A stretch of 57,463 nt of DNA, taken from positions 1-57,463 of the forward strand of contig JANQDZ010000023.1 in NCBI GenBank assembly GCA_028278645.1. Direction: 5' to 3'. Each line of letters begins with the position of its first letter. The first letter of the stretch is position 1. The position numbers and the translations under genes were made by a program. The notes beneath the pieces are model-generated. The model saw nothing but the letters and a program-made list of their open reading frames with translations. It was not told the DNA's origin and did no database searches. Shown here piece after piece: positions 31,908 through 52,096 of this stretch. This stretch comes from Longimicrobiales bacterium (GTDB taxonomy: Bacteria > Gemmatimonadota > Gemmatimonadetes > Longimicrobiales > Gaopeijiaceae).

Positions 31908-31933
31908 AATTTGTGTGAATCGCGGAAGGAACC

Positions 31934-32734: not shown

Positions 32735-32736
32735 CC

Positions 32737-33435
32737 TCAGACACGCCCTCTAATAGTGGCGAGTTCTGTTGAGAAGCGCTCCTTCAAGTGTTCGTGGACT
32801 TTCCTCAGCAGATCGGCTGTTGACAGGGACAGGTTGCCTGCTCCCGTCCTGAGCTCGCTCGCACCGCTCTTCACGGATTCCTCCGCCGCCATGATTGCGT
32901 TCTCTACCTCGGCTAGTGCTCCCTCGAGTTCAATCCTTTTGCTGTGGGCAGTGATTCCCCAAAAGACACAGGCGTCGTGGAAGGTGGCTCGGTCAATCTC
33001 CCCTGATTGTTCTCGAAGGACTGCCCGGGATCGCAGCAGCCGCTCCAGCTTTCCGCGGATCTCCCTCGACATTGTTGCCTTTCCGCCAGAGAAGCCGGAG
33101 GAACTGGGTTGACCTGGTTCCTCTTCATTCAATTGGCGCCCGAGGGTTTGCCCTGACGGGGTCAGCTTGTAGAGCTTCGTGCCGACCTTCTTCAGGAATC
33201 CTCTTTTGCGGATGGGCTTCGAGCCCATCAACTCCGCGTATACCCGATTTGAATCGGGGTATCGAGGTAGTCCCCGGTCGTCATCGTGACCCCGTAGTCC
33301 GAAAGCTCGTGGGTACCTCCGCCATGCGGCGACAACGAGGTCCTCACCTGTGAGCGGTCGATCCTCTCCCTCACTCAGACCGTAGGCAACGATTAGGAGT
33401 TTCTCCCAGACGGGCCTTGTGGCTTTGGCACTCAT
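32737..33435 (-). CDS. Hypothetical winged-helix protein, third gene of the GHKL module
   Basis: A 232-residue protein. Residues about 8-100 read as a winged-helix domain (WEKLLIVAYGLSEG, LTGEDLVVAAWRRYP, GFLKKVGTKLYKLTPSG), the last part being a typical wing. After a Ser/Gly-rich linker comes a helical, probably coiled-coil half (MSREIRGKLERLLRSRAV, then a long Glu/Lys-rich helix to the end). It overlaps the GHKL ATPase stop by four bases (ATGA), so it is translated with it. It probably binds DNA or serves as the adaptor of the ATPase; no enzymatic motif was seen. The family is unrecognised. Confidence 0.65.
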   Translation of the reverse strand: MSAKATRPVWEKLLIVAYGLSEGEDRPLTGEDLVVAAWRRYPRAFGLRGHDDDRGLPRYPDSNRVYAELMGSKPIRKRGFLKKVGTKLYKLTPSGQTLGRQLNEEEPGQPSSSGFSGGKATMSREIRGKLERLLRSRAVLREQSGEIDRATFHDACVFWGITAHSKRIELEGALAEVENAIMAAEESVKSGASELRTGAGNLSLSTADLLRKVHEHLKERFSTELATIRGRV

Positions 33436-35741
33436 CTTCCCTCCGGTGGTGCCTCATTATCGATGATGAACGGGGCCAACTCCTCCGCAATAGCCGATTG
33501 AAGCTCAGGCAGCTTGTCTGACATCATGAGGAAAAACTCCTGTTTCGTCATGGCGCCATCGATCTGGGTGTCGTACGTAACCAGGATCTGTGTCATGACA
33601 TCCACGTATCTCTCGACGTGGTACATTCTCCACTCGCGCGACTCATACCCGAACCCAGCCTCTTTGCTGAGGTACATCTTTGCCAGGGGAGCGTCACTGT
33701 TGATCCACCAGATGTTTCGGTCGGAATCTTGGGGTCTTTGGATCACAGGCGGATCGTCAGAGCTGAAGAAGACGTAGTCCTTCGTTTCCGGGTCCTCGTC
33801 GACTTCACCTGAGACGAGAATTAAAGGGTATCCTCGGCCTCTTCCCCGTTTTGATCCTGAGCCGTCCTTGCCGGAACCACCTGAACCATCCTCGCCCGAT
33901 GCTTCCTCTACCACGATCCTCGCTGGGGTTTCGCAGACCACGCGGTCGTCTCCCGCAACCACCTCGGTCTCACCGGGGGTGATCCCGAAGACCAAACCAG
34001 CGGACCCCACCCTTGCGGTCGACGCGTTCCCTTCCGTCCAGATTAAGGCAACATCCTCGTAGACGTCTCCACAGGAGAGGGCACACTTTGCCCGAATCTG
34101 GGTCCGGCTACCGGCCGGTACCGTCACGGAATCAGGTTCTAGGGTGATCGACCGGATCCGAATCACCTCGATGGGGACCCTATTCGACTCGAGGGACCCG
34201 TCGATGGTTTCGGCATAGACCACAGTGGTGCCTGCAGAGAAGGAATTGATGAGCATCAGGTGGTCATCCACTACCGCGACGTTCGGATCCTCGGATACCC
34301 AGCGGTAAGGTGTTGCACGGATCTGCCTGCCGTGGGCGTCAAAGAAACGGATCCTTGGCCTGATCGCTACACCGAGGCCTAGACGGGGGTGGGACACGCT
34401 GACGTCAATTCGGGAGGGCTTGCCTGCTGGAAGCCGAGTCGTTGAAGTCCTTGCCCCTCCACCGCCGAACTGGCCGAGCATCAAGTCGCGGATGAATCGG
34501 TTCTTCCAGCGGTCCAGCGCCTCGTTCATACGGCTGAGCTCATTCCTCTCCTTTTTCGTATAGGCCGTTCTGTCCCGGCTCTCGAACTCCTCTGCGAATG
34601 CCTGGATCTCCTCGGCAATGAAGTAGTCCACCGCTCGGGTGAGAGGAGATTCGGCTAGTGCTCCTCGATGGTTTTGTTTGAACTCTTCGAGGCTCTCCAG
34701 TTCGCACTCACCGTAGATTTTGTCGCGGTAGCCAGAGACCACAGGGAACTCGAGCATTCCCCGGTACCCGATGAATCCGCCCGCAGGTGTCTTGTAGTTG
34801 ATCGTGTGTCGGGCCTTCTTTTTCCACCTCATGCTGGTCCTTGAGGTGCAAAGGATCAGGGTGCCCTGGGGGAGTGAGCCATCACCGATCGTGGATTCTT
34901 CCGTTCCAAAGACAGGGTCGGGCAGGGATTCCGGAATCTCCAAGACCTTTTCGGAACTGCCGGGAATTGGATCAACCGCGGTTGGCGACAGGGGATTCGC
35001 ATTCCGGACTTGTCGTCCGTTGTGCATCACGAAAACCTCGCAGAACTCTAGTGAGGTTAACATTTGGGGGTGGTCCTGCAGCTGCCCCAGAAGGTCCGTC
35101 ACCGGGATCTTTTTGCTCATGTTCTTTGGCCCCACACCCCTCACCAATGTGAACCCGGATGCCCTCGCCGCAGCCTCCTTTACAGCTTCAGGCAGTTTGG
35201 CGTAGGAGGCCCCTAAGGGGGTGAGGGCAGCGTCGAGATCCTGGATGAGATTGGGGACATCATAGTCTTTTCCCTCGACGTCGTCTGGCACATATCCGAA
35301 CTGGGTGGTTCCTCCACCCGTTCCATATCGGCATCCCTTCCCACCCCGATGGGTTTGGAGTAGAGCATATTCGGTGAACATCTGTGTCATGTAGCACTTC
35401 CCGCCATTCCCGTGGCCGCCTTGGACTGAAGCATCTGTGTCCTGTGCTGCTGCGTCTGGGTCCGCCCAATGGCGGAAGTACTCCTCGATGTGATGACTGG
35501 TCGTTCCGACTAGGTCGAGACAGGCGATGGAGGGTGGGCCGACCCTTGCTAGGTCACACGTGAAGAGCACTATCACCCTGTCTTCCGGGTTGAAGGTTCC
35601 CCTGCTGTAGGCGTCCGCAGAGTTCTTTACCCATTCTGGCAGCCCGTTTTCGTGAGACTGGAAGGGTTTGCAGATTAGGGCGATGGCCCCCGGGCCATGG
35701 ACTCTCTGTTCTGCGTCTGGGGTAAACCGGAATTCGGACAC
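33432..35741 (-). CDS. GHKL ATPase with Ig-like (Big_2-type) repeats
   Basis: A 769-residue protein, GTG start at 35741 behind AGAGAGG. N-terminal Bergerat-fold ATPase: N box E36-WVKNSADA (N40, D43), G1-like D76-LVG79, and G2 box GGHGNGGK at 108-115. A transducer-like middle region extends to about 430. Two Ig-like strands sets follow (RIRFFDAHGRQI … YRWVSEDPNVAVVD and SITLEPDSVTVPAGSRTQIRA … GITPGETEV), the pattern of bacterial Big_2 domains. A Gly/Ser/Lys-rich linker then leads to a C-terminal domain of about 140 residues (YPLILVSGEVDED). No signal peptide, so the Ig-like modules are inside the cell. MORC/MutL-like GHKL ATPases are known from restriction-associated operons. This one is flanked by two winged-helix genes. 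Confidence 0.75.
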   Translation of the reverse strand: MSEFRFTPDAEQRVHGPGAIALICKPFQSHENGLPEWVKNSADAYSRGTFNPEDRVIVLFTCDLARVGPPSIACLDLVGTTSHHIEEYFRHWADPDAAAQDTDASVQGGHGNGGKCYMTQMFTEYALLQTHRGGKGCRYGTGGGTTQFGYVPDDVEGKDYDVPNLIQDLDAALTPLGASYAKLPEAVKEAAARASGFTLVRGVGPKNMSKKIPVTDLLGQLQDHPQMLTSLEFCEVFVMHNGRQVRNANPLSPTAVDPIPGSSEKVLEIPESLPDPVFGTEESTIGDGSLPQGTLILCTSRTSMRWKKKARHTINYKTPAGGFIGYRGMLEFPVVSGYRDKIYGECELESLEEFKQNHRGALAESPLTRAVDYFIAEEIQAFAEEFESRDRTAYTKKERNELSRMNEALDRWKNRFIRDLMLGQFGGGGARTSTTRLPAGKPSRIDVSVSHPRLGLGVAIRPRIRFFDAHGRQIRATPYRWVSEDPNVAVVDDHLMLINSFSAGTTVVYAETIDGSLESNRVPIEVIRIRSITLEPDSVTVPAGSRTQIRAKCALSCGDVYEDVALIWTEGNASTARVGSAGLVFGITPGETEVVAGDDRVVCETPARIVVEEASGEDGSGGSGKDGSGSKRGRGRGYPLILVSGEVDEDPETKDYVFFSSDDPPVIQRPQDSDRNIWWINSDAPLAKMYLSKEAGFGYESREWRMYHVERYVDVMTQILVTYDTQIDGAMTKQEFFLMMSDKLPELQSAIAEELAPFIIDNEAPPEGR

Positions 35742-35752
35742 TTCGACCTCTC

Positions 35753-36358
35753 TTATTGTTCTTCCACTAGGCGATCAACGAGGGCTTCCCATGCTCGGCT
35801 GATGTCGTCTTTCAAGGTTTTTGGGGATTTGACTGTGTAACCCTTCCGCCCGTGACGTCGAAGGAAGCCTTCCTGTTTGAACCATCCAAGGACGAGGTAA
35901 AGCTGGTAACCGGGTATCCTTAAAGAATCTTGGTGCTGTCTGAGGTCGCTCATACCCTCCGCTTTTATGGGGCCTTCGTCGAGAGCTTGGAGCGCCAAGG
36001 CTCGATCTGCGATGGCTTCCAACGCGGCGCGAGGAGCTCGGTGCTCGTACGACCTCTCGTTCGAGGGTGAGCGGCCAATCTTGACTAGGTAGTCTCCCTC
36101 CCTGACGAACGAGGGCAGACCAACGCTGGTGGCCGATCTCCCTGGTTCGTTGGAGCTTCCAGGATCTTGGGTCTCAGATCCGGTCTGTCCCATTTCGGCT
36201 GTTCGGATCGGATCGATCTCGGCCAACTGCTTCGCGACTGAAAGGACCGCCGGGACCTCGTCGAACCGATGCTCCTTCATGGCTTGTTCTACCAACTGCC
36301 GTACGCTTCGCTCAGCCGTTCGGACCGCCTCGATCGCCTCTTCCAGAAGTCTCTCCAT
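35753..36358 (-). CDS. Hypothetical winged-helix protein, first gene of the GHKL module
   Basis: A 201-residue protein. Residues 1-50 form a helical, probably coiled-coil segment (LLEEAIEAVRTAERSVRQLVEQ). The middle is Ser/Gly-rich. The last ~100 residues look like a winged helix with an antirepressor-like wing (LVLGWFKQEGFLRRHGRKGYTVKSP). Its stop is 11 bp from the GTG of the GHKL ATPase, giving a compact three-gene leftward operon with the A/T-rich region upstream as its promoter. It may sense or recruit DNA for the ATPase, which is inference from context. The family is unrecognised. Confidence 0.65.
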   Translation of the reverse strand: MERLLEEAIEAVRTAERSVRQLVEQAMKEHRFDEVPAVLSVAKQLAEIDPIRTAEMGQTGSETQDPGSSNEPGRSATSVGLPSFVREGDYLVKIGRSPSNERSYEHRAPRAALEAIADRALALQALDEGPIKAEGMSDLRQHQDSLRIPGYQLYLVLGWFKQEGFLRRHGRKGYTVKSPKTLKDDISRAWEALVDRLVEEQ

Positions 36359-36700
36359 CGAAACACTTAGGGTTAGAGTCTACATAAATTTTACTTAAAA
36401 TATAGAATATGCAGTTCATGGCAAGAGACGAATGCCGAAAGACTGTGGTCGTTGGCTCGGCCTTCCTTCTGTTTGGGGAAGAGAAACCCTCCGAACCTGG
36501 ATTGTGGGGCCTTCTCCGTCCTAGGAATGTTTGGTCTTATAGCGATCCCGGTCTCGTTCACAGGGAGGCCACTGCCGGGCCCAGGAACTCACAGGGCTCC
36601 ATCAGCCCTCCCAACAGGTGCCCGGGAGATATTCCTTCGTGGATGAGGGCAACGCATGACACATGCGACGTGACCTACCTCGCCATGCGTGGGGAGTTTA
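36359..36700. other. Non-coding region with A/T-rich promoter zone of the GHKL operon
   Basis: Bases 36381-36410 are about 90 percent A+T in a G+C-rich sequence and lie 23-52 bases upstream of the first GHKL-module gene. This is the likely promoter, although no single -35/-10 pair is convincing. Nothing was recognised in 36413-36700. Confidence 0.5.
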
Positions 36701-37645
36701 TTAGATCTTGGTGACCTTCTTGAGGATGGGACCTAGGGCACCAACCAAGCGGTCCATATTTTGGATGGATTGTTCCTGGATCTCAGGCCACTCCTCCGGC
36801 GGGGCCATAAGCCCACCACACGCGAACTCGGCCCTGACGCGACACGCTCTTCTTCCCTCAATCAGTTGCCAGTCAAGTGGGCCGCCGAATGTCTTCTCAG
36901 CTTTCAAACGGTCTTCACGCATGGCTTCGAGAATTCGTTCATTCTCGGCTGCGTCACCGGTATCGATATAGAGCTCCACTCCAGCTCTTGCTTTCTTCCA
37001 GATTAGATACACCCAGCTCACCCCCCCCCGCCCAGCACCCGACCCGAGCCAGCTATCCCTCGTAGGGGCCCTGTTTGCATGATGAAGGATGCCCATGGCC
37101 TTGGCGCGGTCAAGTAAACCTTCCCAGTACCGAAGACGGAGGAGGTGACGCTCAGCTAGTTCCTTCTTCTCTTGTCCGATAGCCTTTGCCTCTTCGGAGG
37201 GACCGGCGAGGACAGTGAACAGGGGAGCCGCGGCCGAATTGCCTATTTGGATTGCTTCGAGCCGAACGAGGAAGAAAGCCCTGTCTACAGGGGTGGACTC
37301 ATTCAACCAACTGATCGCCGTGACATGTTCCGGGCGGCCGTCCGTGACTATCCATATGGCGAACGTTGCTTCGAGGTTGGAAAAGTAGGTTACCAGCTTC
37401 CCCAGGTGGTCGTGGTTTGAGGGTTCTAGCTGGTTTTCGATGATGACCGGTTCCCCGGATTCCGTCTCTGCCACGAGGTCGACACGGAAAGATCCGACGC
37501 TCTTCTCGCGGTCGACTGGCTGAAGTGGGATTCCGACTGCCTCTGCCAAGGTTTCGAGATTCTCCTCCAGCCATACCGTGAATCCCCGCTCTTCATGGGC
37601 CCAGAGCTTGCGGACAGGCACCTTCTCGATTCGGCCGATTTCCAT
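36701..37645 (-). CDS. DUF4268-type PD-(D/E)XK nuclease-like protein with a coding G9 tract
   Basis: A 314-residue cytoplasmic protein, ATG 37645 behind GGGAGAGA. The N-terminal part is a restriction-endonuclease-like fold: V55-D56-LVAE, then VIIE70-N-Q72 (D … ExQ, the Lys of the usual ExK replaced by Gln as in some active members), then a helix with Tyr. The C-terminal half (WVYLIWKKARAGVELYIDTGD, FGGPLDWQ, RRACRV) matches DUF4268 as I remember it. Such proteins are common in defence islands. A run of nine C on the + strand (37021-37029, nine G in the coding sense) lies between the two domains at about residue 206. Slippage there would cut off the C-terminal domain. Confidence 0.72.
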   Translation of the reverse strand: MEIGRIEKVPVRKLWAHEERGFTVWLEENLETLAEAVGIPLQPVDREKSVGSFRVDLVAETESGEPVIIENQLEPSNHDHLGKLVTYFSNLEATFAIWIVTDGRPEHVTAISWLNESTPVDRAFFLVRLEAIQIGNSAAAPLFTVLAGPSEEAKAIGQEKKELAERHLLRLRYWEGLLDRAKAMGILHHANRAPTRDSWLGSGAGRGGVSWVYLIWKKARAGVELYIDTGDAAENERILEAMREDRLKAEKTFGGPLDWQLIEGRRACRVRAEFACGGLMAPPEEWPEIQEQSIQNMDRLVGALGPILKKVTKI

Positions 37646-38857: not shown

Positions 38858-40111
38858 ATGGCAAAGCTCACGAAGGAGCAGATCATGGTGAGTGAGCAGA
38901 TGGTGCAGAAGGATGTGTCGATTCGGCAGGTGGCCCGGCAACTTGGCGTGACGGAAGGAGCGCTTCGATATCACTTCCGGAAGCGGGCCGAAGGTCGAGA
39001 CGGAGAGGACGGCCGGAGGGACCAACCGACGGCCGTGGACGGCTATGAAGAGGCCGTAGAAGCGATTCTGGAGCGCTTGGAGTGCCGGCGGGTGACCGGG
39101 GAGGGACGACCGGTCCAGGCCCGGACGGTCTACGAGCTTCTGGGCCGAGATTATGGCTATTCGGGGAGCTACCGGGGTGTCGTACGACATCTGAGGCGAC
39201 GCTACGGCGTTCCACCTGTTCGGGCCTATCGGCGTGTGGAGACACCTCCTGGGGTCCAAGCCCAGCACGACTGGTTTGAGGCCCATACCCGGATCCGGGG
39301 CCAGGAGACGGATGTTCAAGCACTGGTGGGAACGTTGTCCCACAGCCGGGGCCGGTTCTGCTGGGTCAGCCGTAACGCGACGCAGTTGGCCTGGCACGCA
39401 GGGCATCTGGCGCTCTTCGAGCGGTATGGGGGCGTTCCCCTCTGGGTCCGGATCGACAACCTGAAGACCGGAGTGGCTTCCGGGGCGGGGTCCACGGCGG
39501 TGCTGAACCGAAGCTACGAAGCGTTCGCTCGAGGGTGTGGGTTCGAGATCGATCCGTGCCGGCCGGGTACCGGCTCGGACAAGGGCAAGGCGGAGCGAAG
39601 TGTCCGCACCTTCCGACAAGCCTTTGGCGAGGTGTTTCGTCAGGACTGGGTGAGTTGGGAGGCTCTGCAGACGGGTCTGGACCAACGAGCCTGGTCGTTG
39701 ATGGATCGGCTCATGTGTCCGGTGACAGGGACCTCGGTGCGGGAAGCCTTCGAGGCCGAGGGGTTGGTGCTTCAGCCGCTACCCACCATGGCGGAACCGT
39801 TCGATGTGGTGGTGTCGAGGAAGGTGAGCCGTGACTGCTTGGTCTCGTTCGAAGGGCGCCGTTACAGCGTGCCCTTTCTCTGGGTAGGCCGGCAGGTGGA
39901 GGTCCTTGGAACCCTGAAGCACGTGGTCATCCAGGCCGGGGGCCAGGAAGTTGCCCGACACCCGCGGGGTAGCCGCGAGCTTCTGATCCTGGATCCAGAC
40001 CACGATGAGGGTGAGTCCACTGACCAGGTCATTCGGCCCACACCGATGGGTCACCGAGCTCGGCTTCAGATGGCCGGTCTGAGCGGACCCTCGAGAAGTG
40101 CCAGGTGCTGA
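38858..40111 (+). CDS. istA: IS21-family transposase IstA
   Basis: A 417-residue DDE transposase. The N-terminal helix-turn-helix (VSIRQVARQLGVTEGALRYHFRKR) binds the ends. The catalytic core has Asp in QAQHDWFEAH, Asp in RIDNLKTG and Glu in GKAERSVRTF. A C-terminal beta-barrel (DCLVSFEGRRYSVPFLWVGRQVEV) follows. The start ATG 38858 has GGAGAAGG upstream. It overlaps istB by 7 bases. The frame is intact, so the element could be active. Confidence 0.92.
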   Translation: MAKLTKEQIMVSEQMVQKDVSIRQVARQLGVTEGALRYHFRKRAEGRDGEDGRRDQPTAVDGYEEAVEAILERLECRRVTGEGRPVQARTVYELLGRDYGYSGSYRGVVRHLRRRYGVPPVRAYRRVETPPGVQAQHDWFEAHTRIRGQETDVQALVGTLSHSRGRFCWVSRNATQLAWHAGHLALFERYGGVPLWVRIDNLKTGVASGAGSTAVLNRSYEAFARGCGFEIDPCRPGTGSDKGKAERSVRTFRQAFGEVFRQDWVSWEALQTGLDQRAWSLMDRLMCPVTGTSVREAFEAEGLVLQPLPTMAEPFDVVVSRKVSRDCLVSFEGRRYSVPFLWVGRQVEVLGTLKHVVIQAGGQEVARHPRGSRELLILDPDHDEGESTDQVIRPTPMGHRARLQMAGLSGPSRSARC

Positions 40112-40890
40112 AGCTGGTGCATCTGGCAGAGTGTCTGCCTGAACTGGTGGAAGAAGGGGCCCGGGACGACGTGACGCCCATCCGGTTTCTGGATCTGGTG
40201 TTGGAGCGGGAGATCGAACGGAAGACGGAGCGCAGGATCGCCACCTCGCTCAAATTGAGCGGACTGCCGGTGGGTAAGACACTGGACAACTTCGACTGGA
40301 CGTTCCAGCCCCGTGTGGACCGATCGAAGCTGGAAGGGCTGGCCACCTGCCAGTTCCTCAGGGACCGGGACAACGTACTCTTCCTCGGTCCGCCAGGCGT
40401 GGGAAAGAGCCACCTGGCGGTGGCCCTGGGCGTACGGGCTATCAAAAATGGCTTCAGCACCACCCACTTCATCCTGGACGACCTGATGCATCAGCTCAAG
40501 GCGGATGCGGCCGTACCTCCAGCTCGTCTGAAGGCGAAGCGGTACCTGAACAGCGGGCTACTGATCATCGATGAGGTGGGGTTTCGGCCCCTGGACCGGC
40601 TCGAGGCGAACCTGTTCTTCCGGCTCGTGAGCGCTCGGTACGAGAAGGGGTCCATCATCCTGACCTCGAACAAGCATGTCCGGGACTGGCCGGAGATCTT
40701 TGCCAGCGACGAGGTTCTGACGACGGCCATCCTGGACCGGCTACTCCACCACGTTCACATCATCCACATCGATGGCCGGAGCTACCGTCTCCGGGAACTC
40801 GACGGCCTCCTGCAGCCGCAGCCGGCCCCTTCCTCACCCCAAGCGAAAAAAGGAGAGAAACCTACTCAGATGCAAACGGCGAGTGCGTAA
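40105..40890 (+). CDS. istB: IS21-family helper ATPase IstB
   Basis: A 261-residue AAA+ ATPase that controls target choice for IstA. Walker A GPPGVGKSH, Walker B LLIIDEVGFRPL and a sensor-like SIILTSNKHV segment are intact. The start is GTG 40105 inside the end of istA, so it is translationally coupled. The C-terminal tail is Pro/Lys-rich. Confidence 0.92.
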   Translation: MLKLVHLAECLPELVEEGARDDVTPIRFLDLVLEREIERKTERRIATSLKLSGLPVGKTLDNFDWTFQPRVDRSKLEGLATCQFLRDRDNVLFLGPPGVGKSHLAVALGVRAIKNGFSTTHFILDDLMHQLKADAAVPPARLKAKRYLNSGLLIIDEVGFRPLDRLEANLFFRLVSARYEKGSIILTSNKHVRDWPEIFASDEVLTTAILDRLLHHVHIIHIDGRSYRLRELDGLLQPQPAPSSPQAKKGEKPTQMQTASA

Positions 40891-43073: not shown

Positions 43074-43364
43074 ATGCGCGTGGTGGGCCGACAGCTCCTA
43101 GAGGACTTCAAACGGCAGCATGCCGATGCGAGGGGCTCGGTAGATGCCTGGTTGGCGGAAGCTAAGGAGGCGACGTGGGAAACCCCCCACCATGTGAAGG
43201 AACGCTATGCGAGCGCGAGCATTCTCAGGAATGGGGTGGTGGTCTTTAACATTCGGGGTAACCGGTATCGCCTTGCCGTCCGAATCGCGTATCAGACCCA
43301 GATTGTGAAGGTGTTGGCGGTTGGAACACACAAGGAGTACGACTCCTGGACGTTCGACAGCTGA
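43074..43364 (+). CDS. higB: HigB-type toxin (mRNA interferase)
   Basis: A 96-residue RelE/HigB-fold toxin expected to cut mRNA on the ribosome. It follows the HigB_toxin pattern: DFKRQHADARGSVDAWLAEAKEATW, then VKERYASASILRNGVVVFNIRGNRYRLAVRIAY, then VLAVGTHKEYDSW (the final THxEYD is diagnostic). ATG 43074 has GAGGG upstream. The antitoxin gene follows 12 bp later, the typical toxin-first order of hig loci. Confidence 0.88.
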   Translation: MRVVGRQLLEDFKRQHADARGSVDAWLAEAKEATWETPHHVKERYASASILRNGVVVFNIRGNRYRLAVRIAYQTQIVKVLAVGTHKEYDSWTFDS

Positions 43365-43376
43365 GTAGGGGGTAGC

Positions 43377-44579
43377 ATGTTTAAGGTCATCCGCAATGAC
43401 GACGACTACAATGTCGCCCTTGAGACCATTGAGGCTCTTGTTGCGAAGGATCCCCCACGTGGCAGTGAGGAAGCTGATCGCCTAGAGGTTCTGGCAGTTC
43501 TCCTCGAGGAATACGAACAAACCAACTGGCACGAGACTCTTCCCTCCCCGGTTGAGGCGATTCGATTCCGAATGGAGCAAGCTGGTCTGAAGCAGCGAGA
43601 TCTGGTGCCTTACTTCGGTAGCGCAAGCAGGGTCTCTGAAGTGCTCTCGGGAAAACGCAATCTAACCCTCCAAATGATCCGGGCACTGACCGAGGGCCTC
43701 GGCATCCCGGCGCGGGTGTTGATCCAGGAAGAACCATCCGAAGAGACAATAGAGGAAGCGCCCTGGGCGAAGTTTCCCGTCAAGGAGATGGTACGGCGAA
43801 ACTGGATCTCAAACGTTGCTCTGCAATCGCCCGAGACCATGGTTGCGGCACTAAAGGCCTTCTTCGCACCGCTGGACCCGTCGATGGACCTCGCGGTCCT
43901 GTACCGAATGACTCGACACGTTCGGACGACTAGAAAGGCAGATGAGCCATCCCTGATTGCCTGGACAGCGAAAGTGCTCCTTTCCGCTGGCGAACAGAAC
44001 CTCGAGGCCAGTTTTAAACCGGGAAGCGTGACGCCGGAGCTTATGACGGAGCTGGTAAAGATCTCATGGGCCGACAACGCTCCGGCGTTGGCCCGTGAAT
44101 TCCTTGGTCGACACGGTATCGCTTTGGTGGTAGAGCCGCATTTCCCAGGAACCCACCTGGATGGGGCAGCTATCCTATCTGATCCAGACCGGCCAATCGT
44201 AGGCCTAACACTACGCTACGATCGCCTTGACAATTTCTGGTTCGTCCTCATGCACGAATTGGCTCACATCAGCCTTCATGGGCGTGGAGAAGCGGACGTG
44301 TTCTTTGATGACCTTGATGGAGATGCCGTCGAGGATATGGAGGATGAGGCCGACCAACTCGCCGGTGAAGTGCTCGTGCCGAGCACCGAATTCATCAAGA
44401 GTCCGGCCAGCAGACTTCGCACAGCGGGCGCGGCGGAAAACCTGGCTAGAAAGCTCGGGATCCACTCCGCCATTGTCGCCGGAAAGATGAGGCACTTTTT
44501 CAACTCTTATCGAATCCTCACGAAGCTAGTGGGGCAGGGTGAGGTCCGAAGATGCTTCCCAGAAGTGACCTGGCCTTAA
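43377..44579 (+). CDS. higA: HigA-type antitoxin fused to an ImmA/IrrE metallopeptidase domain
   Basis: A 400-residue protein, four times the usual antitoxin size. Residues 1-120 are a HigA antitoxin with a Xre helix-turn-helix (QAGLKQRDLVPYFGSASRVSEVLSGKRNLTLQMIRAL). Residues about 200-390 form an ImmA/IrrE zinc peptidase with H293-E-L-A-H297 and downstream acidic residues (EDEADQLAGEVLVP) giving the third ligand. Known ImmA/IrrE proteases cleave a paired Xre regulator when activated; here protease and regulator are one chain. Damage or phage sensing that leads to self-cleavage and toxin release is an attractive inference. The start is ATG 43377 behind AGGGGG, and the gene overlaps the following beta-protein frame region. 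Confidence 0.87.
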   Translation: MFKVIRNDDDYNVALETIEALVAKDPPRGSEEADRLEVLAVLLEEYEQTNWHETLPSPVEAIRFRMEQAGLKQRDLVPYFGSASRVSEVLSGKRNLTLQMIRALTEGLGIPARVLIQEEPSEETIEEAPWAKFPVKEMVRRNWISNVALQSPETMVAALKAFFAPLDPSMDLAVLYRMTRHVRTTRKADEPSLIAWTAKVLLSAGEQNLEASFKPGSVTPELMTELVKISWADNAPALAREFLGRHGIALVVEPHFPGTHLDGAAILSDPDRPIVGLTLRYDRLDNFWFVLMHELAHISLHGRGEADVFFDDLDGDAVEDMEDEADQLAGEVLVPSTEFIKSPASRLRTAGAAENLARKLGIHSAIVAGKMRHFFNSYRILTKLVGQGEVRRCFPEVTWP

Positions 44580-44593
44580 AGAAAGGCTATCGA

Positions 44594-45655
44594 ATGATAC
44601 CTCCATACTACGTACCGGTCTTGAGGTGGAAGAGGGCAGAACAAAAAGCCCTCGGAATGATAAACACTCCCGAGCGGGAGTATGTCATACCTCTCGTTGA
44701 ATTGGTTCCGCGGGATTACGAAGCCAAGAAGTCGAAGCCCGTTCCTACGATCCTGCAGGTCGCGGAGAAACAAGCCACTTCAATTACCCGGAACTGGCCT
44801 GACCGGCCGATGTTCGTTGATCCCTGGCTTCTCTCTGGTCGCCTTCGCCGAAACCCCAAAAACCATCCCCTTTCGCACCTCGGAGGTCTAGCCAAGAGCG
44901 CTAAGCTTCGGCTGATTCCGGTCGCGAATCTCCGCACGGCATCATCCGAGCTGGCAGTGCTAGCAAAGACCGCTGCAACACTCGGTCATGGGGGGGCCAT
45001 TCGGCTGAAACCCGCCGACCTGTGGGACGGCACCCTGGGTTCGCGAGTCAGGTCGCTCCTTCGCGCATTCGGTCTGGCCAGCACCGGAACCGATATCCTC
45101 ATCGATTACGAGATCACTGATCCTGGAGCCCCTACTATCGCCTCTGTGCTGAGAAAGCTGGGCGGAATGAAGCAGTGGCGGACGATTGCGGCCATCAGCG
45201 GAGCTTTCCCGAAAGATCTAACGGGTTTCACGCCTGGAGAGCACCTTCACCCACGAGTGGACCTAACTTGGTGGCGTTCTCAGAGAACGGGCGCTCAGCC
45301 TCCCTGCGCCTTTGGCGACTACGCGATCCAGCATCCGGTATTCGAGGAGCCGCCGGGAAGAGCCAACTTTTCAGCAAGTATCCGGTACGCGACCGAGGAG
45401 CACTGGGTGGTGATGCGTGGGGAGGGTGTGTTCAACGACGATGGGCCTGGTTTTGCCCAATGGCCCGCCAACGCTCAACTCCTCTGCGAACGGTCCGAGT
45501 TCTGCGGAGCCGAGTTTAGCTACGGTGATCAGTACATCAGCGAGATGGGCCATCAAGCGAAAACCACAGGAAATGCGGAAACCTGGCTCAGAGCGGGACT
45601 GAATCACCATTTGGTCTATACAACCCGCCAGCTCGCCAAGCTCTTCGAGTCTTGA
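44594..45655 (+). CDS. Beta-family protein (PF14350-like)
   Basis: A 353-residue protein. ATG 44594 is preferred (AAAGG upstream, and family members begin near YxPVLKWK); the frame extends back to 44552 inside higA. It follows the layout I recall for phage T4 beta protein relatives: a start strand YVPVLRWKRAEQKAL, then YVIPLVELVP, and later strands as in a TIM-like fold (FVDPWLL, LIPVANLRT, GAIRLKPADLW, DILIDYEI, TIAAISGAFPKDL). In bacteria these genes occur in defence neighbourhoods, often with sce7726-type partners. Here one lies convergent and overlaps by 68 bp. It follows the toxin-antitoxin pair closely, so it is probably in the same operon. Molecular function unknown. Confidence 0.7.
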   Translation: MIPPYYVPVLRWKRAEQKALGMINTPEREYVIPLVELVPRDYEAKKSKPVPTILQVAEKQATSITRNWPDRPMFVDPWLLSGRLRRNPKNHPLSHLGGLAKSAKLRLIPVANLRTASSELAVLAKTAATLGHGGAIRLKPADLWDGTLGSRVRSLLRAFGLASTGTDILIDYEITDPGAPTIASVLRKLGGMKQWRTIAAISGAFPKDLTGFTPGEHLHPRVDLTWWRSQRTGAQPPCAFGDYAIQHPVFEEPPGRANFSASIRYATEEHWVVMRGEGVFNDDGPGFAQWPANAQLLCERSEFCGAEFSYGDQYISEMGHQAKTTGNAETWLRAGLNHHLVYTTRQLAKLFES

Positions 45656-46226
45656 GGCGAGCCCGAACCCCTGTCTTGAGGGCCTGCAAGTCTAGGACAT
45701 CGACTAACCGCTGATAGAGTCTTCGCCGGGAAGCGGACCGCAAGCCGTCCGCCTCACCCAAATCAACAAGGAATTCGAGCGCTTCATCTCTCCAGAGAAG
45801 CTTGATTACGGAAGCCGCATCGACGGAGGGGTTCTGTTTTGCCCTACGGAGGGTGCTAAAGGTGATTCCGCCTCGTGGTCCAACCTTGGCAGACATGATG
45901 CCCCACCAATCTGGGAGGAGGGGAACGGCCGCGTCGATGTGTGCCCCGTCACAAAGGAGCGTGGCTCGATCCAAGATCAGCGAATACGTTTCGACCTGGG
46001 CTGGCAATCGAGCTAAGGTGTCCTTTCGGCTCTTGATCTCGTAGCCATCCACTCGACCATTCACAACTGCGACGTCGACTCGAGACTTCCCGTGTCGGAG
46101 CCCGAGCTCTTCCACAATCAGCGAACCCGGATCCGACCGGTGCCGAACATGCAACCGGTGCAGAAGTGCTTGGCGGAGTGCTGCATCGCCGAAGGAGTCA
46201 GGTGAGAATGCCATTGCACAACCCAT
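45588..46226 (-). CDS. sce7726-like PD-(D/E)XK-type protein
   Basis: A 212-residue protein with the pattern of sce7726-family proteins: an early LRQALLHRLH helix, LIVEELGLRHGKSRVDVAVVNG (Asp on a strand), then DGYEIKSRKDTLARLPAQVETY, giving a D … ExK nuclease-like site, and a Tyr-containing helix. Such proteins usually sit beside a beta-protein gene. Here the two are convergent rather than in tandem, and their 3' ends share 45588-45655. The ATG at 46226 is used; another at 46214 is possible. Nuclease activity is inferred from the motif. Confidence 0.7.
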   Translation of the reverse strand: MGCAMAFSPDSFGDAALRQALLHRLHVRHRSDPGSLIVEELGLRHGKSRVDVAVVNGRVDGYEIKSRKDTLARLPAQVETYSLILDRATLLCDGAHIDAAVPLLPDWWGIMSAKVGPRGGITFSTLRRAKQNPSVDAASVIKLLWRDEALEFLVDLGEADGLRSASRRRLYQRLVDVLDLQALKTGVRARLKTRRAWRAGGLYRPNGDSVPL

Positions 46227-46449: not shown

Positions 46450-47319
46450 TCAAGCTCTAGTGGAGGCTCCTTCAGCCCGCAGGATGTTGCGGTGGATACA
46501 GCAGACTACCGGGAAGCCCGGTTCTTTGGTGACGACTGTCAGGTCCGGTGGGACCGCTGGTCCTTGGATCCCCAGTTTTTCCACCTCCCCCAGAAGCTCC
46601 TGGAAATCGGGAGAAGCCTTCGGAAGTTCCTCATGAATGGATCCCAAGCGGAACTGTTGGAATCCAATCAGACCGACGCAGGGGAATATTTCTCCGTTTT
46701 CATCGATGGTCATCTGGAGACGGCGGTCACAGGCAGAGATATGGCGCTCAGAAGGCCCGGTGATACTCCCTCCGCTGTCAGGGACCACGCGAAAAACCTT
46801 CCCTCCCAGTGTCTGGGATCTTCCAACGCCCTTCTCAAGCCACCAAAGCGGGTCACCCCTTAGGGTTAGCATCGATGTGGCTTCGGCCGCGGCCTCAAGG
46901 GTCCGCAGAAGCCCGGATTCGGTCCCGGTTGGGCGATTAGGTTTTCGGCAGTCGAGGGTAAGGGAGAACCCACGTTCAGCCTGGAAGGTGTCGATCAAGG
47001 TGTCACCGACCTCCAATAAGTCCCAGAGGTCGAGTTCAAGATTCGTGATGAAACCACGTTTCCTTGCAGCGCAGGCTATTGCGAACAGACGCTTTTCTAA
47101 ACCCGCTAGGCTATCGACAGCCAAACGGCATTCCCTTCCGTAGAGTAGATGAAGATTGCGCCCCTGGCTTATCCCGGTCGAATCACGATACCAGGCATCG
47201 AATCGTGGGATCCAGTCTACCAGCGTTTGTGACCCCGGCCGGAAGTCTTCCTTCTCGGACGCCAAGAAAGCCCCGATAGATCCTAATCGCGAAAGAAACG
47301 GCAACCGATCTCCTAGCAA
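46450..47319 (-). CDS. SPASM-like protein lacking the radical SAM cluster motif
   Basis: A 289-residue protein, probably a partner or degenerate paralogue of the radical SAM enzyme upstream. It has no CxxxCxxC motif. Its C-terminal third does look like a SPASM/twitch domain: SACDRRLQMTIDENGEIFPCVGLIG, then RLGSIHEE, and a late VVCCIH, which would supply Cys ligands for one auxiliary Fe-S cluster. The middle shows TIM-barrel-like strands (FSLTLDCRKPN and SMLTLRGDP). The start codon is TTG 47319, overlapping the radical SAM stop by 7 bases, so the two are translated together. A scaffold or peptide-binding role is inference. Confidence 0.65.
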   Translation of the reverse strand: MLGDRLPFLSRLGSIGAFLASEKEDFRPGSQTLVDWIPRFDAWYRDSTGISQGRNLHLLYGRECRLAVDSLAGLEKRLFAIACAARKRGFITNLELDLWDLLEVGDTLIDTFQAERGFSLTLDCRKPNRPTGTESGLLRTLEAAAEATSMLTLRGDPLWWLEKGVGRSQTLGGKVFRVVPDSGGSITGPSERHISACDRRLQMTIDENGEIFPCVGLIGFQQFRLGSIHEELPKASPDFQELLGEVEKLGIQGPAVPPDLTVVTKEPGFPVVCCIHRNILRAEGASTRA

Positions 47320-48323
47320 GCCTTGAGCGCCTTTTGGACGCTCTGAAAGGCAAGGGTGGAAAAGAACTCTGTGACCTTCTCTGCGCGCTCGGGGTCAGAG
47401 AATATCCACCAACACAGGTGGCAGATGGACGCGAAACTCCGGTCTCGAACTGTGTGTCCTGCATTCTCAAGAATCGGCACCAAAGACCCAACTCCTCCAA
47501 AAACGATCGTTCGCAACAACGGCGAGCTATTCATACGCTCGGCTATGTCGACAATGGATTCATCCCTCACGTTCCCGAAGATGTGTCCATCTGTTTGATC
47601 GATGCCCGCACAACAGGGGAATACGTTGCCGAACGCATTCACGGCCAAGTTCATGGTCTGGTGGCAGTTAGCGTTTAGGGGAGAACCTGCATGGACCTCG
47701 GACGGTGAGATCTCTCGCGCCGCCCGTCCGATGGGGGACACGGGGCTACAGTACATTTCGTCGACCGAAGACAGCGTCTCATTGGCAAGAGGTTGGATCG
47801 CCCCTTCGACGGTGTTCTTACGGCTGGAGAGGATCCTCAGGACGGTCTCGATGCCGTTTTCCCTGCATGCGTGTACGCAGTGATCCACACGGTCCGGAGG
47901 AACGAAAGGGCGGTGCCACGCGTCCCAGCTGATTTCCATCCTCGTCAGGCCTGCTGATCGCAGGCGTTGGCAATGGGAATCTGCCGTCCTTGGGTTTCTT
48001 GCCCAGAACGCGTTCGTCGTCCCAGACACCTCGAGAAATCCACTCCTCCGGGCCGACTCAACAATTGCCAGACAGTCGTCGAGCTGAACGAAGGCTTCGC
48101 CTCCAGCAAAATGTAAATGAGGCTTGAGCGACGGGATCGCTGGCGCCTCCTCTATCACTCGCATGAGGGTTTCTAGGCTCAACGACGAAAACCCGAGAGA
48201 TTCGGATCCCCCTGGGCCCGCTGATTGGTAGCACATGGCACATTTCGCCGGGCATCGATTCGTGGTCTCTAGGACCAACGACTCGTAAGTGACCGGCATG
48301 TCCCTCAGCACCTTTGCGTTCAC
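47313..48323 (-). CDS. Radical SAM/SPASM enzyme, probably peptide-modifying
   Basis: A 336-residue iron-sulfur enzyme. The S-adenosylmethionine-binding cluster motif is C24-PAK-C28-AM-C31, with a GGE segment (HLHFAGGEAF) further on. The C-terminal SPASM-like region has Cys in NCHQTMNLAVNAFGNVFPCCAG and CHLCWW, so auxiliary clusters are likely. Enzymes of this build often modify ribosomal peptides. It starts at GTG 48323 (GGGG upstream; ATG 48299 is the alternative) and lies 55 bp after the small gene that could encode its substrate. It overlaps the SPASM-like partner. The reaction (epimerisation, cross-link, thioether) cannot be read from the sequence. Confidence 0.82.
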   Translation of the reverse strand: MNAKVLRDMPVTYESLVLETTNRCPAKCAMCYQSAGPGGSESLGFSSLSLETLMRVIEEAPAIPSLKPHLHFAGGEAFVQLDDCLAIVESARRSGFLEVSGTTNAFWARNPRTADSHCQRLRSAGLTRMEISWDAWHRPFVPPDRVDHCVHACRENGIETVLRILSSRKNTVEGAIQPLANETLSSVDEMYCSPVSPIGRAAREISPSEVHAGSPLNANCHQTMNLAVNAFGNVFPCCAGIDQTDGHIFGNVRDESIVDIAERMNSSPLLRTIVFGGVGSLVPILENAGHTVRDRSFASICHLCWWIFSDPERAEKVTEFFSTLAFQSVQKALKAC

Positions 48324-48378
48324 CGTTCGCCCCGGTGCGAGGTGCCCTTTGGGGTTTTATCAAGGACCGGCCAGAGAG

Positions 48379-48729
48379 TCACTTCTTGACGGCTTTCCTC
48401 GCGGCTGCGACGGCAGCCAGTGCTAGCGCGACAGTCTCCACCAGGCTTGCTGACACTCTAACGTCGGAAAGATTCACTTCAGATTCGTCAAAGCGGTTGC
48501 GGTCGTCGACAGTCAAATAGGGGTTTTGAGACGACAACTCCACCACCGTTGACAGGATCTCTTCTTTCGCATCCGTGAGTGCATCGATGACCTCGGGGGT
48601 TGTTTCAATCCCGTGCTGTTCAGTGAACCCCTTCGGATCACGGAGAAGATCTTCCAGGATGGAGAGGGGAGCGTCCTTCAGGTTTGTCAGGTCAGTGAAC
48701 ACAGGGGCCGCGGAAGCCGAGCTGGCCAT
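48379..48729 (-). CDS. Small protein, candidate RiPP precursor
   Basis: A 116-residue, Cys-free product. The start ATG 48729 is fixed by a perfect AGGAGGTGA immediately upstream, implying very strong translation. Residues about 22-70 resemble leader regions of the nitrile-hydratase or Nif11 kind (LSILEDLLRDPKGFTEQHGIETTPEVIDALTDA is the pattern of a leader helix pair). The C-terminus is an Ala/Val-rich hydrophobic helix (about 90-110) ending in a basic tail. No double-Gly cleavage site is evident. It is first in a leftward unit with a radical SAM/SPASM enzyme and its partner, so it may be the modified substrate; alternatively it is a small structural protein. The family is not recognised. Confidence 0.55.
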   Translation of the reverse strand: MASSASAAPVFTDLTNLKDAPLSILEDLLRDPKGFTEQHGIETTPEVIDALTDAKEEILSTVVELSSQNPYLTVDDRNRFDESEVNLSDVRVSASLVETVALALAAVAAARKAVKK

Positions 48730-49166
48730 TGTCACCTCCTAGAACAGTTTGGTGCCGAATCAGCGGTCTAGGTGGAAGCTAAGAACTCTCCCAGCGGATT
48801 CGCCAGGTTCTTGGACGGCCAGGCCGCCGGGCCCTTGCCCAGAAGCGCTGAAGGGCTACAGAGGATTCCATATCGTGCCTCCCGGTGGCCACTCCTGAGC
48901 CCGCTTGTCAAGGCCGTTGGTTTTTAAGGTTGGCATGACGAGTAGGGCCTCACATTGTACCGTCGGACAAAGGGCTCCGTGAAGAAACCGCAATGATGGC
49001 GGGTAGTCGATCCGTCTCCCGGCAGCTGAGTCGGTCGGTCATGGAGTGCACATGCCCTTCTTTGACGGTTAAGCCTGCGGGTGGCAACGCCGTTTGAATA
49101 GGTCACACCGGGCGTTAAAAGTGACTGACTGCCAGGCCCCGTCAGCTTCGGCGGCATGCGAGTTTC
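48730..49166. other. Non-coding divergent region left of the G-tract promoter
   Basis: It should contain the leftward promoter of the peptide unit, but no convincing -35/-10 pair was found. Frames reading through it (for example 48924-49313 leftward) have poor composition and no ribosome site. Confidence 0.45.
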
Positions 49167-49195: not shown

Positions 49196-49470
49196 CGCCG
49201 AGACGGAAACCAGCGCGTTGTGGAGTATAGAAAGCTAGTCCGTCGACGGCGAAATCAGCGAAGTTAGTGGGCTCCTCTTTCCGCACGGGCTGAATTCGCG
49301 AGGCCTCCTTCAAAGAAAGCAGGGTTAACTGGGATCATGATTGGCCTTTCAGTGAAACCGGAATCAAACGCGTTCTGCGGGGAGGTGGGTAGTCACCGCT
49401 TGCCCTGGGATCAGTCCAGGCCTTGGGGTTCTTGGTCAGATCTGGCGGTTCGCCAGTGCCGCGGGGCGCA
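49196..49470 (+). other. Long structured leader of the ABC operon
   Basis: About 270 bases separate the promoter from the ATPase start. A near start-site stem pairs TCGCCG and GACGG (49195-49206) with CCGTC and CGGCGA (49240-49252). A compact hairpin CTGGCG/CGCCAG with a 3-base loop lies at 49442-49456, 14 bases before the ATG. No known riboswitch consensus was recognised. Leftward and rightward small frames here are not supported. Confidence 0.45.
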
Positions 49471-50304
49471 ATGAGCCAATCGGAATTCCCAGGCGCAGTT
49501 CTCGCGAAGGGTGTATCCTTGGCTTTCTCGGAAGGGCAAGGCTGGCTCTCGGTTTTGACCGATCTCGATTTTGCAGTCCGCCCAGGTGAGTTCGTCTCCA
49601 TCATCGGGCCCTCCGGTTGCGGAAAAACTTCCCTTCTGAAGCTCTTGACAGGCCTCTACTCTCACCGGTCGGATGTAAGAGTATCCGGTGAAGTGTTTGT
49701 GAACGGTGCTTCGTCCACCTCAGCGCGAATGAGCCGGCAGATCGGTCTGATGTTCCAATCGCCGTTACTGCTGCCATGGCGGACTGTCATCCAGAACCTT
49801 CTTCTGCCGAATGAACTCATTCAAGACTCACCCGAAACACCCCAGGACCCCACCGTAATCCTTGAGCAGTTGGGCTTACTCCAGTTCCAGGATTACTTCC
49901 CGGCGAACCTTTCCGGCGGAATGCAGCAGAGGGTCGCCTTGGCGCGGTTATTGATGTACCGCCCCAGGATCCTGACAATGGATGAGCCTTTTGGGGCGCT
50001 CGATGAGCAGACGAGAGAGGGATTGAACCAAGACCTGCTTGAACTATGGAGGCAGGAATCGCCTACGGTCCTATTCGTGACCCATAGTCTCCAGGAAGCT
50101 GTATTCCTCTCCGATCGAATACTCGTCCTCACGGACAGGCCAGCATCGATTTACGCCGAGGTCCAGGTCTCTGTTACTCGGCCCAGAAGTTTGGATCAGA
50201 AGTTCACGGTGGATTTCCTTAATGCACAGAAGGAGTTAAGGGCCCTTGTAAAAGAAGCGTGGGATGAGCAGGATGCCGGGCGCGAGAAAGGCGTTGACAG
50301 ATGA
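49471..50304 (+). CDS. ABC transporter ATP-binding protein, NitT/TauT type
   Basis: A 277-residue ATPase. Walker A GPSGCGKT (46-53), Q-loop LMFQSPLLLPWRT, signature LSGGMQQRVALARLL, Walker B RILTMDEPFGALD and the switch His in VTHSLQEA are all present. The closest families are the SsuB/TauB/NrtD group of importers for nitrate, sulfonate, taurine or pyrimidine-type solutes. The start is taken at ATG 49471 (open upstream to 49423), just after a hairpin. It overlaps the permease start by four bases. The substrate is not defined by the ATPase. Confidence 0.9.
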   Translation: MSQSEFPGAVLAKGVSLAFSEGQGWLSVLTDLDFAVRPGEFVSIIGPSGCGKTSLLKLLTGLYSHRSDVRVSGEVFVNGASSTSARMSRQIGLMFQSPLLLPWRTVIQNLLLPNELIQDSPETPQDPTVILEQLGLLQFQDYFPANLSGGMQQRVALARLLMYRPRILTMDEPFGALDEQTREGLNQDLLELWRQESPTVLFVTHSLQEAVFLSDRILVLTDRPASIYAEVQVSVTRPRSLDQKFTVDFLNAQKELRALVKEAWDEQDAGREKGVDR

Positions 50305-51056
50305 GGATTCGAGTCATCGGTCCGATCGCAGTCCTGTTCCTGTTCTTGATTGGCTGGGAAGGAGTTGTACGGCTATGGGAAATCCCGGAGTATTTGGTCG
50401 CTCCTCCATCCGCCATATTCCGATATTCCGTTGACAATTTGGGAGACCTCTCCGGTCATTTCCTCATCACGATGACGGAAGCAGCTGCGGGTTTCCTGTT
50501 GGGCTCTTCGGTTGGGTTCCTCTTAGCAGTGGGTTTTTCCCACTCTCGTACCCTGGAGTACTCCCTTTACCCGTACATGATCGCTCTGAAGGCAGTGCCG
50601 ATCGTGGCGCTGGCTCCGCTCCTAGTGCTTTGGTTTGGGAATGGTATTCCAGGCAAGGTGGTCATGGCGGCGCTGATCTGCTTCTTCCCCGTCATCGTGA
50701 ATGTGGCCATCGGTCTGCGGGCAGTCGATCCAGGTCTTCATGAACTCTTCCGTTCCTTGGCAGCGTCTCGCTCTCAGATCTTCTTCAAGCTTAGGCTGCC
50801 TTCATCTCTACCCTATTTGTTTGCGTCTTTCCGTATCGGTTCGACACTGAGTGTGGTCGGTGCCATAGTGGGCGAATTCTCTGGTGCTCGAAGTGGTCTC
50901 GGCTACCTAATGGTAGTTTCTGTCTACCAACTTGAAACCCCGGCCCTGTTCGCCGGGATCGTGGCCGCATCTCTTGGAGGGATCGCGTTTTTCTATCTCA
51001 TCGTTTGGCTTGAAAGTCTCTTCGTGCATTGGGAGCCAAGGGACACAAAGGTATGA
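50301..51056 (+). CDS. ABC transporter permease, NitT/TauT type
   Basis: A 251-residue inner-membrane protein with about six transmembrane helices. The permease EAA-type loop (LHELFRSLAASRSQIFFKLRLPSSLPYLFASFRI) that contacts the ATPase is present. The ATGA overlap couples it to the ATPase gene, and its own stop overlaps an ATG of the next reading frame. It belongs to the SsuC/TauC-like importer permeases. The solute is unknown. Confidence 0.9.
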   Translation: MRIRVIGPIAVLFLFLIGWEGVVRLWEIPEYLVAPPSAIFRYSVDNLGDLSGHFLITMTEAAAGFLLGSSVGFLLAVGFSHSRTLEYSLYPYMIALKAVPIVALAPLLVLWFGNGIPGKVVMAALICFFPVIVNVAIGLRAVDPGLHELFRSLAASRSQIFFKLRLPSSLPYLFASFRIGSTLSVVGAIVGEFSGARSGLGYLMVVSVYQLETPALFAGIVAASLGGIAFFYLIVWLESLFVHWEPRDTKV

Positions 51057-51073
51057 CTAAAAGGAGTTCCAAC

Positions 51074-52096
51074 ATGCGGGACGCGGCACTGGGACGGATC
51101 CATTTTCGGAAGTGGTTCGGCGCGGTTTTTGTTCTCTGTTTGGCCCTTCTGTCGACTTCCTGTGATGGAGGAAACACGAGCCAATCTGAGATCTCGGTCC
51201 GTCTAAAGTGGACCTTCACGGCACACACGGCAGCCGGGCCAGGCGTTGCCTTGGCCAGAGGTTTCTTTGAGAACGAGGGCTTGCAGGTGACTCTCAACCC
51301 TGGAGGTTTCGAGTTTGACCCGGTTACGCTGGTCGCTTCCGGCTCCGACGATTTCGGGGTAAAGGGTGCGGACGACCTTATTATTGCTCGTTCTCGAGGT
51401 GTCCCAATCGTTGCCATCGCCATGGACTACCAACTGAACCCCGTAGCTTTCATGAGTCTCCCACAAACGCAGATCCGGACCCCGGCGGATTTCATTGGTA
51501 GGCGGATCGGAGCGAAATACGGCCAAAACGTTTATACGTTTCTCCTGGCAATGCTCCGAGACCAGGGAGTGCCCCTTGATTCGATCGAGGAAGTCCCGGT
51601 CAGGCTCGATGTATCACCCCTTCTTACCGATCAGGTCGACGTGTTCCCGGGTTATGACAATTTTGAACCCGCAATCTTCGCCGACCGAGGTATTGAGGTG
51701 GACGTCCTCCTTGCAAGGGACTACGGAGTCCAGTCTTACGGTAACGTGGTCTTCGCATCAGAGGAGATTATCCGGAATCAACCAGAGAAAGTCCTCCGTT
51801 TCTTAAGAGCCTATCTGCGCGGATGGGAGTGGGCCATAGAGAACCCCGAGGAGACCGCGCGGATCATGGCTGGGTTGAATCCAGACTTTTCCGAGTCGGT
51901 CCAACAGAGGATGATGGAGAGAACGATCCCGTATGTTCGGCCTGAGCCTGGGTTCCGGGTGGGGTCGATGACCATGGAGGGATGGGAACTCACTCAACGG
52001 GTGCTCCTCGACCAGGGCCTGATCGGGGAGCCAATTGATCTGAGCGAAGCTTTTACAACTGAGTTTCTTGAATTGGTTTATCCAGATGAGGGCTAG
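51074..52096 (+). CDS. ABC transporter solute-binding lipoprotein (NMT1/SsuA-like)
   Basis: A 340-residue lipoprotein. ATG 51074 has AAGGAG seven bases upstream and is preferred to ATG 51053, which overlaps the permease stop. The signal peptide ends in a lipobox with Cys30 (LSTSC). The mature part is a type II periplasmic-binding fold of the NMT1/SsuA/ThiY group: VRLKWTFTAHTAAGPGVALARGFFENEGL, then DFGVKGADDLIIARSRGVPIVAIA, then IGAKYGQNVYTFL. The opening KWTFTAH…A/GPGVALARGFF matches HMP-precursor-binding ThiY-like and similar proteins, so a pyrimidine-like solute is possible. The next gene follows after 2 bp. Confidence 0.87.
   Translation: MRDAALGRIHFRKWFGAVFVLCLALLSTSCDGGNTSQSEISVRLKWTFTAHTAAGPGVALARGFFENEGLQVTLNPGGFEFDPVTLVASGSDDFGVKGADDLIIARSRGVPIVAIAMDYQLNPVAFMSLPQTQIRTPADFIGRRIGAKYGQNVYTFLLAMLRDQGVPLDSIEEVPVRLDVSPLLTDQVDVFPGYDNFEPAIFADRGIEVDVLLARDYGVQSYGNVVFASEEIIRNQPEKVLRFLRAYLRGWEWAIENPEETARIMAGLNPDFSESVQQRMMERTIPYVRPEPGFRVGSMTMEGWELTQRVLLDQGLIGEPIDLSEAFTTEFLELVYPDEG

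Follow-up and report, generated by a model that had tools for sequence, protein, structure and literature searches.

A rare three-gene radical SAM cassette in a Longimicrobiales bacterium as a candidate peptide-epimerisation pathway

What does a radical SAM (S-adenosylmethionine) enzyme make when the small gene beside it lies outside the usual precursor families? This question is raised by contig JANQDZ010000023.1 of a Longimicrobiales bacterium (assembly GCA_028278645.1), of which we analysed a stretch of 57,463 nucleotides, hereafter the window. On its minus strand three closely packed genes, across 48729-46450, encode a candidate precursor peptide, a radical SAM/SPASM enzyme (P0002) and a SPASM-like partner (P0003). 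An earlier note on this DNA had proposed here a pathway for a ribosomally synthesised and post-translationally modified peptide (RiPP), and we regard the cassette as very probably just that, given the co-occurrence of enzyme, precursor and partner described below. More specifically, P0002 is predicted to epimerise residues of the precursor, a reading to which we assign a probability of roughly 0.65 from the homology of the enzyme and the composition of the putative core; epimerisation appears to be the most likely chemistry because the enzyme is specifically EpeE/YydG-like.

The precursor gene (48379-48729, minus strand) begins with an ATG at 48729, its stop codon ends at 48379, and its product has 116 residues and no cysteine, as had been noted. 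Immediately upstream of the ATG, at 48732-48740 on the same strand, the sequence reads AGGAGGTGA. With three occurrences of this 9-mer in the window, both strands counted, it makes a good ribosome site without being rare; the strong translation earlier attributed to the gene is an inference. After a gap of 55 bp from the precursor stop follows the gene for P0002 (47313-48323, 336 aa), which starts at 48323 and is overlapped by 7 bp by the gene for P0003 (46450-47319, 289 aa), both on the minus strand. The true start of P0003 may instead be a TTG at 47304, which has an AGGAG about 5 nt upstream. With three genes in 2.3 kb, the window holds the minimal gene set of the clusters discussed here.

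A pattern scan of one genome per species, covering 84,980 species, recovered four orthologues of P0002 with 42-49% identity in the best segment, from a Paenibacillus sp., a Loktanella sp., a Rhodoferax metagenome-assembled genome and Roseibium. A plasmid of Tropicibacter oceani contributes two more, making seven enzymes in total with that of the window; over the alignment the six orthologues show 39-47% identity. All seven enzymes have both a precursor-like gene and a relative of P0003 in the same cluster, and these three-part clusters are spread over Bacillota, Pseudomonadota and the window's own lineage. The precursor lies upstream of the enzyme and in the same direction in the window, Paenibacillus, Loktanella and the first Tropicibacter cluster; in Roseibium it is divergent, in Rhodoferax it lies downstream, and in the second Tropicibacter cluster it is found past the partner, on the opposite strand. 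The Rhodoferax partner gene is placed after a gene for an M23 peptidase, and the Tropicibacter plasmid (L027:4901-7652 and L017:5280-12584) carries two enzyme-partner pairs and two precursors in a convergent arrangement. It might be argued that the small gene is a chance neighbour and that the enzyme pair acts on a small molecule or another protein, as the divergence of the window's precursor (15-26% identity to the other six) could suggest, but the recurrence of all three parts in every cluster across such distant lineages renders this highly improbable.

The association also holds when approached from the precursor. A profile built from the other six precursors recovers the window's precursor as its only match in the 4.9-Mb genome (E 0.011, 16.6 bits). 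Across 197 genomes of the Loktanella order and 200 of the window's phylum, the full precursor profile returned nothing convincing that lacked the enzyme, the one weak exception being a 20.9-bit match inside an 879-aa frame, and among 72,556 plasmids relatives of precursor and partner occur on the Tropicibacter plasmid only. The earlier note had expected the three genes to be conserved together and had held that orthologous enzymes without a small neighbour, or the small protein proving to be a known structural protein that occurs without the enzyme, would speak against a peptide pathway; the former expectation is borne out in the seven clusters, none of the seven enzymes lacks the matching small gene, and the weak match just mentioned is the sole hint of the small protein without the enzyme.

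How rare the cassette is becomes clear from searches around each of its hosts. Within the window's phylum a single genome among 395 has the enzyme (E 1e-12), this being the window itself, and the groups of other orthologues give 1/247, 1/201 and 1/289 genomes, each time the query genome; in the Loktanella family it is present in 2/346 genomes, namely the query and one whose match positions are those of the Tropicibacter plasmid. Apart from the window, neither the 395 phylum genomes nor 98 related genomes (E 1e-10) contain a close orthologue, the other enzymes detected there having 25-26% identity and different contexts. Two scans of viral contigs and a search of phages found no relatives. The scatter of so rare a cassette over unrelated bacteria suggests horizontal transfer. 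The phylogenetic tree of the enzymes groups the seven together, but we give it little weight because of its support (92/97) and the very long branches to every outsider.

The precursors range from 113 to 276 aa. A leader motif of the form [DSN]P..[FY]...[HSA]G[VLI] ("DP..F...HGv") is common to all seven and appears in the window as DPKGFTEQHGI at residues 31-41. When followed by an A/V-rich stretch, the slightly wider pattern [DSNE]P..[FY]...[HSA]G[VLI] picks out only the seven precursors among 2,363 frames, a selectivity to be read with the fact that the pattern was derived from those same precursors. The structure model of the window's precursor predicts a helical leader at residues 14-68 (48526-48690), a low-confidence linker and a C-terminal helix. 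It is of modest confidence (block mean pLDDT about 56-74) and has no significant fold match, but it agrees with the helical middle that had been read by eye. The Ala/Val-rich tail noticed at the same time, residues 94-116 with a basic end (ASLVETVALALAAVAAARKAVKK, 48382-48450), aligns with the A/V-rich segments of the other six precursors and is the putative core. These segments have 60-90% A+V over 20 residues; the cores consist mainly of Ala, Val, Ser and Gly, contain no Cys and are nearly free of aromatic residues. Cysteine is absent from four whole precursors, and the other three have a single one outside the core. Such cores leave few options for thioether or aryl cross-links: thioether chemistry was rejected as unlikely for want of core cysteines, and the Cys donors typical of sactipeptide and ranthipeptide cores occur in none of the seven. 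As previously surmised, the precursor falls outside the usual families, being below the cut-off of every Pfam and NCBIfam family and without a match in PHROGs; the nearest hint is to NF038399 of the Os1348 NHLP clan (13.8 bits for the window's precursor and 13.8-14.4 bits over the members scored, against a cut-off of 40). Matches of the family profile to viral VP4 were dismissed as chance.

An A/V-rich stretch of membrane-spanning length could also be a transmembrane helix. The small protein would then be a structural or sensory membrane protein that is not secreted, modified by the enzyme in another part, for example in the LKGLGxxGIRxPGG-like stretch that follows the A/V-rich segment in four of the seven precursors. 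One precursor, that of Rhodoferax (L015:1482-2003), moreover stands apart from the other six in having a Tat-like N-terminus (MDKRDFLKVGAGGG). That tail is nevertheless not the shared substrate, because three precursors, the window's included, are without it, and the clusters contain genes that suit a secreted peptide. In the largest, that of Tropicibacter, the additional genes are for an APH-type kinase, another radical SAM/SPASM protein, a trypsin-like protease and an M23 peptidase; the kinase recurs in Paenibacillus and Roseibium, a trypsin-like protease in Loktanella and an M23 peptidase in Rhodoferax, and in Roseibium an ABC exporter lies near the precursor. With proteases and an exporter thus clustered, we consider a membrane protein quite improbable.

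Turning to the enzyme, P0002 exceeds the Pfam cut-offs for both Radical_SAM (50.2 bits) and SPASM (25.2 bits), which agrees with its first assignment, and its cluster motif C24-x3-C28-x2-C31 (48231-48254) is invariant in all seven orthologues. Among NCBIfam models, the one that P0002-type enzymes match best is that of the YydG peptide epimerase, TIGR04078, with 97, 124 and 109 bits in the three members scored. Against solved structures the single sequence of P0002 finds YydG/EpeE first (E 8e-12), and a profile of the seven enzymes matches the EpeE/YydG structures 8ai1, 8ai6 and 8ai3 with E 3.7e-36 to 1.7e-34, the next-best structure being at E 4e-7. On these comparisons the closest characterised relative of the P0002 subfamily is the peptide epimerase YydG/EpeE. 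Besides the radical SAM cysteines, C220, C237, C238, C301 and C304 are invariant in the seven enzymes, and we infer that C220, C237, C301 and C304 are ligands of an auxiliary cluster. In the EpeE entries 8ai3-8ai5 an Ala replaces the second Cys of the PCC motif; the aligned Cys, C238 in the P236-C237-C238 of P0002 (47610-47618), is invariant in all seven. We take the mutated residue to be Cys223, presuming a native length of 319 residues, that is, the 344-aa construct minus 25 extra residues. Cys223 of EpeE is the proposed hydrogen-atom donor (reviews PMC5682303, PMC8326336), and the alignment of C238 with it fits the same function.

Two other sets of radical SAM proteins were noticed in these comparisons. 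Two Allochromatium plasmids (L018:5995-7020 and L019:4995-6020) carry a YydG-like radical SAM gene of about 27% identity to P0002, flanked by type III-B CRISPR (cmr) genes on one side and csm6 on the other. Two further loci (L010 and L012) encode proteins of 743-744 aa in which, by reading, an N-terminal radical SAM domain and a nucleotidyltransferase-like C-terminal part can be recognised; upstream of them lies a kinase-like gene, joined in L010 by a PqqD-like gene.

The partner P0003 overlaps the enzyme gene as first described, whereas its SPASM similarity is sub-threshold (TIGR04085, 18.0 bits against a cut-off of 27); it has no CX3CX2C radical SAM motif, reaches no curated family and looks degenerate rather than active. 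What it retains in all seven partners is C197, C214, C273 and H276 (46492-46731), a possible Cys3His iron-sulfur site. The C197-17-C214 spacing equals C220-17-C237 of P0002, and C273/H276 parallels the CxxC of P0002 with His for the last Cys; the donor Cys has no counterpart. An hhalign comparison of partner and enzyme over the barrel and SPASM-like region gave 89% and E 2e-6 with four sequences, but a weaker 36% and E 4e-4 with seven. That P0003 is a degenerate (pseudo) radical SAM/SPASM subunit and not a second active enzyme is therefore kept as probable only, with the odds about evenly balanced, because the larger alignment weakened the link.

From these elements a course of events can be sketched. 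The precursor would present its aliphatic, Ala/Val-rich core behind a flexible linker and a helical leader with the DPxxFxxxHGv motif. P0002 would cleave SAM at the C24/C28/C31 cluster and abstract the alpha-hydrogen from core residues (Val, Ala or Leu, probably several), and C238 would return a hydrogen from the other face to give D-residues, the auxiliary cluster (C220, C237, C301, C304) assisting regeneration of C238. P0003, encoded by the overlapping gene and always present, is probably a degenerate radical SAM/SPASM protein in which the Cys3His site, resembling a cluster site, persists while the donor Cys and the radical SAM cysteines are gone; as a subunit it could bind the substrate or leader, or aid electron transfer. 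Removal of the leader and export would in the window be provided from elsewhere; the relatives have genes for a trypsin-like protease, an M23 peptidase, a kinase and an ABC exporter close by. The product is likely to be a membrane-active aliphatic peptide. A bolder version, in which an EpeE-type enzyme depends on a pseudo-radical-SAM subunit bearing a Cys3His cluster of its own, makes many epimerisations along the core and yields a membrane-spanning peptide of mixed D- and L-residues, is rather speculative; if true, such a two-protein epimerase would be a route to polytheonamide-like products that evolved independently of PoyD.

Several observations weigh against epimerisation by this system. 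At 97 bits P0002 is far under the equivalog cut-off of TIGR04078 (300) and hence is not EpeE itself, and the Asp mutated in EpeE 8ai6 is an invariant Asn (N225) in the seven enzymes, so that chemistry or regulation may differ from EpeE. The window's core is the least A/V-rich (60%), jointly with the second Tropicibacter precursor; the structure model of P0003 is poor (mean pLDDT 49.6), its fold matches being generic TIM barrels; no protease or dedicated exporter was recognised adjoining the cassette in the window, and no product is known for it. The Asn substitution, together with an extra partner that is always present, unlike in a YydG locus (L020), could point to a RiPP with other radical chemistry, in which the EpeE-like enzyme and P0003 form aliphatic C-C bonds or rings or desaturate Val or Ala; PMC9062424 supplies a precedent in the formation of cyclopropylglycine from Val by a radical SAM enzyme in a RiPP. 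This alternative appears unlikely, since the Cys mutated in the EpeE structures is invariant, no other solved relative comes nearly as close as EpeE, and the cores are largely Ala, which is unable to form such rings.

The cassette can also be set beside known systems. With the epipeptides (YydF/EpeX and YydG/EpeE, Bacillus subtilis epeXEPAB) it shares the enzyme family, with radical SAM motif, auxiliary Cys and hydrogen-donor Cys aligned, a small precursor gene adjoining the enzyme and hydrophobic residues as likely targets. It differs in its obligate SPASM-like second protein, the Asn for the EpeE Asp, the absence of a recognisable EpeP/EpeAB-type pair of protease and ABC transporter, and its unrelated precursor: the YydF-type peptide of L020 has about 51 aa, as against 113-276 aa with a helical leader and an A/V-rich core here, and the precursors here do not match an NCBIfam YydF model and are plainly unlike YydF of L020. 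Proteusins (PoyA/PoyD, PlpD, OspD, AvpD) and NHLP-leader RiPPs are alike in concept, sharing the idea of a helical leader of some length and of aliphatic residues epimerised by a radical SAM enzyme, but the weak leader similarity (NF038399) stays below the NHLP cut-off, and P0002 is SPASM-containing and EpeE-like rather than a PoyD-type single-cluster epimerase. The poly-cyclopropylglycine RiPPs (TvgA/TvgB) likewise pair a radical SAM/SPASM enzyme acting on Val with a repetitive aliphatic core; this core, however, is of TVGG repeats, and the passages of PMC9062424 consulted mention no EpeE-type enzyme for them. The helical leader of the borosin SonA contains a comparable stretch, NPxxxxxxHGL, but its enzyme SonM is an unrelated alpha-N-methyltransferase, and kinship with SonA was rejected, the similarity being insignificant (E about 1 by sequence, 6.9 by fold) and not supported by the family profile. 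Thus the cassette is neither epipeptide nor proteusin by membership, and probably works like an epipeptide system. We found no open-licence paper describing it.

If this is correct, the reach of EpeE-type epimerases would widen beyond one small peptide family to take in a second precursor class, unrelated to the first, whose leaders are folded and whose cores are rich in Ala and Val. This class is spread at very low frequency between phyla, and the precursor family is new to all family libraries searched (Pfam, NCBIfam, PHROGs). The cassette further provides a case in which a radical SAM homologue, possibly inactive, could be tested as obligate partner in peptide modification, and its compactness makes expression in E. 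coli practical.

The gene that comes next after P0003, on its strand and immediately downstream (45588-46226), encodes a 212-aa protein that matches 'cll' of PADLOC (E 4.7e-21); none like it was noticed in the other clusters. An ABC transporter at 49423-52096 was considered as part of the cassette and rejected, being on the opposite strand and an importer of the NMT1/THI5 type. No Rfam family has a match in the window. The cassette adjoins a region rich in defence genes: at 43074-45655 a HigB-like toxin, an HTH/IrrE protein and a beta protein stand in series, and this looks like a defence system of PD-Lambda-2 type because the beta protein matches PD-Lambda-2_C of PADLOC. A transposase with a Mu-type C-terminal domain and IstB form an IS21-type element at 38858-40890. 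Beyond it, a type IIG restriction-modification gene occupies 28552-31569 and a DNA methyltransferase 31934-32734, and a PDC-S11 candidate defence gene is found at 36701-37645; the GC content of 28552-37645 is 0.58, as against 0.61-0.63 in 1-27 kb.
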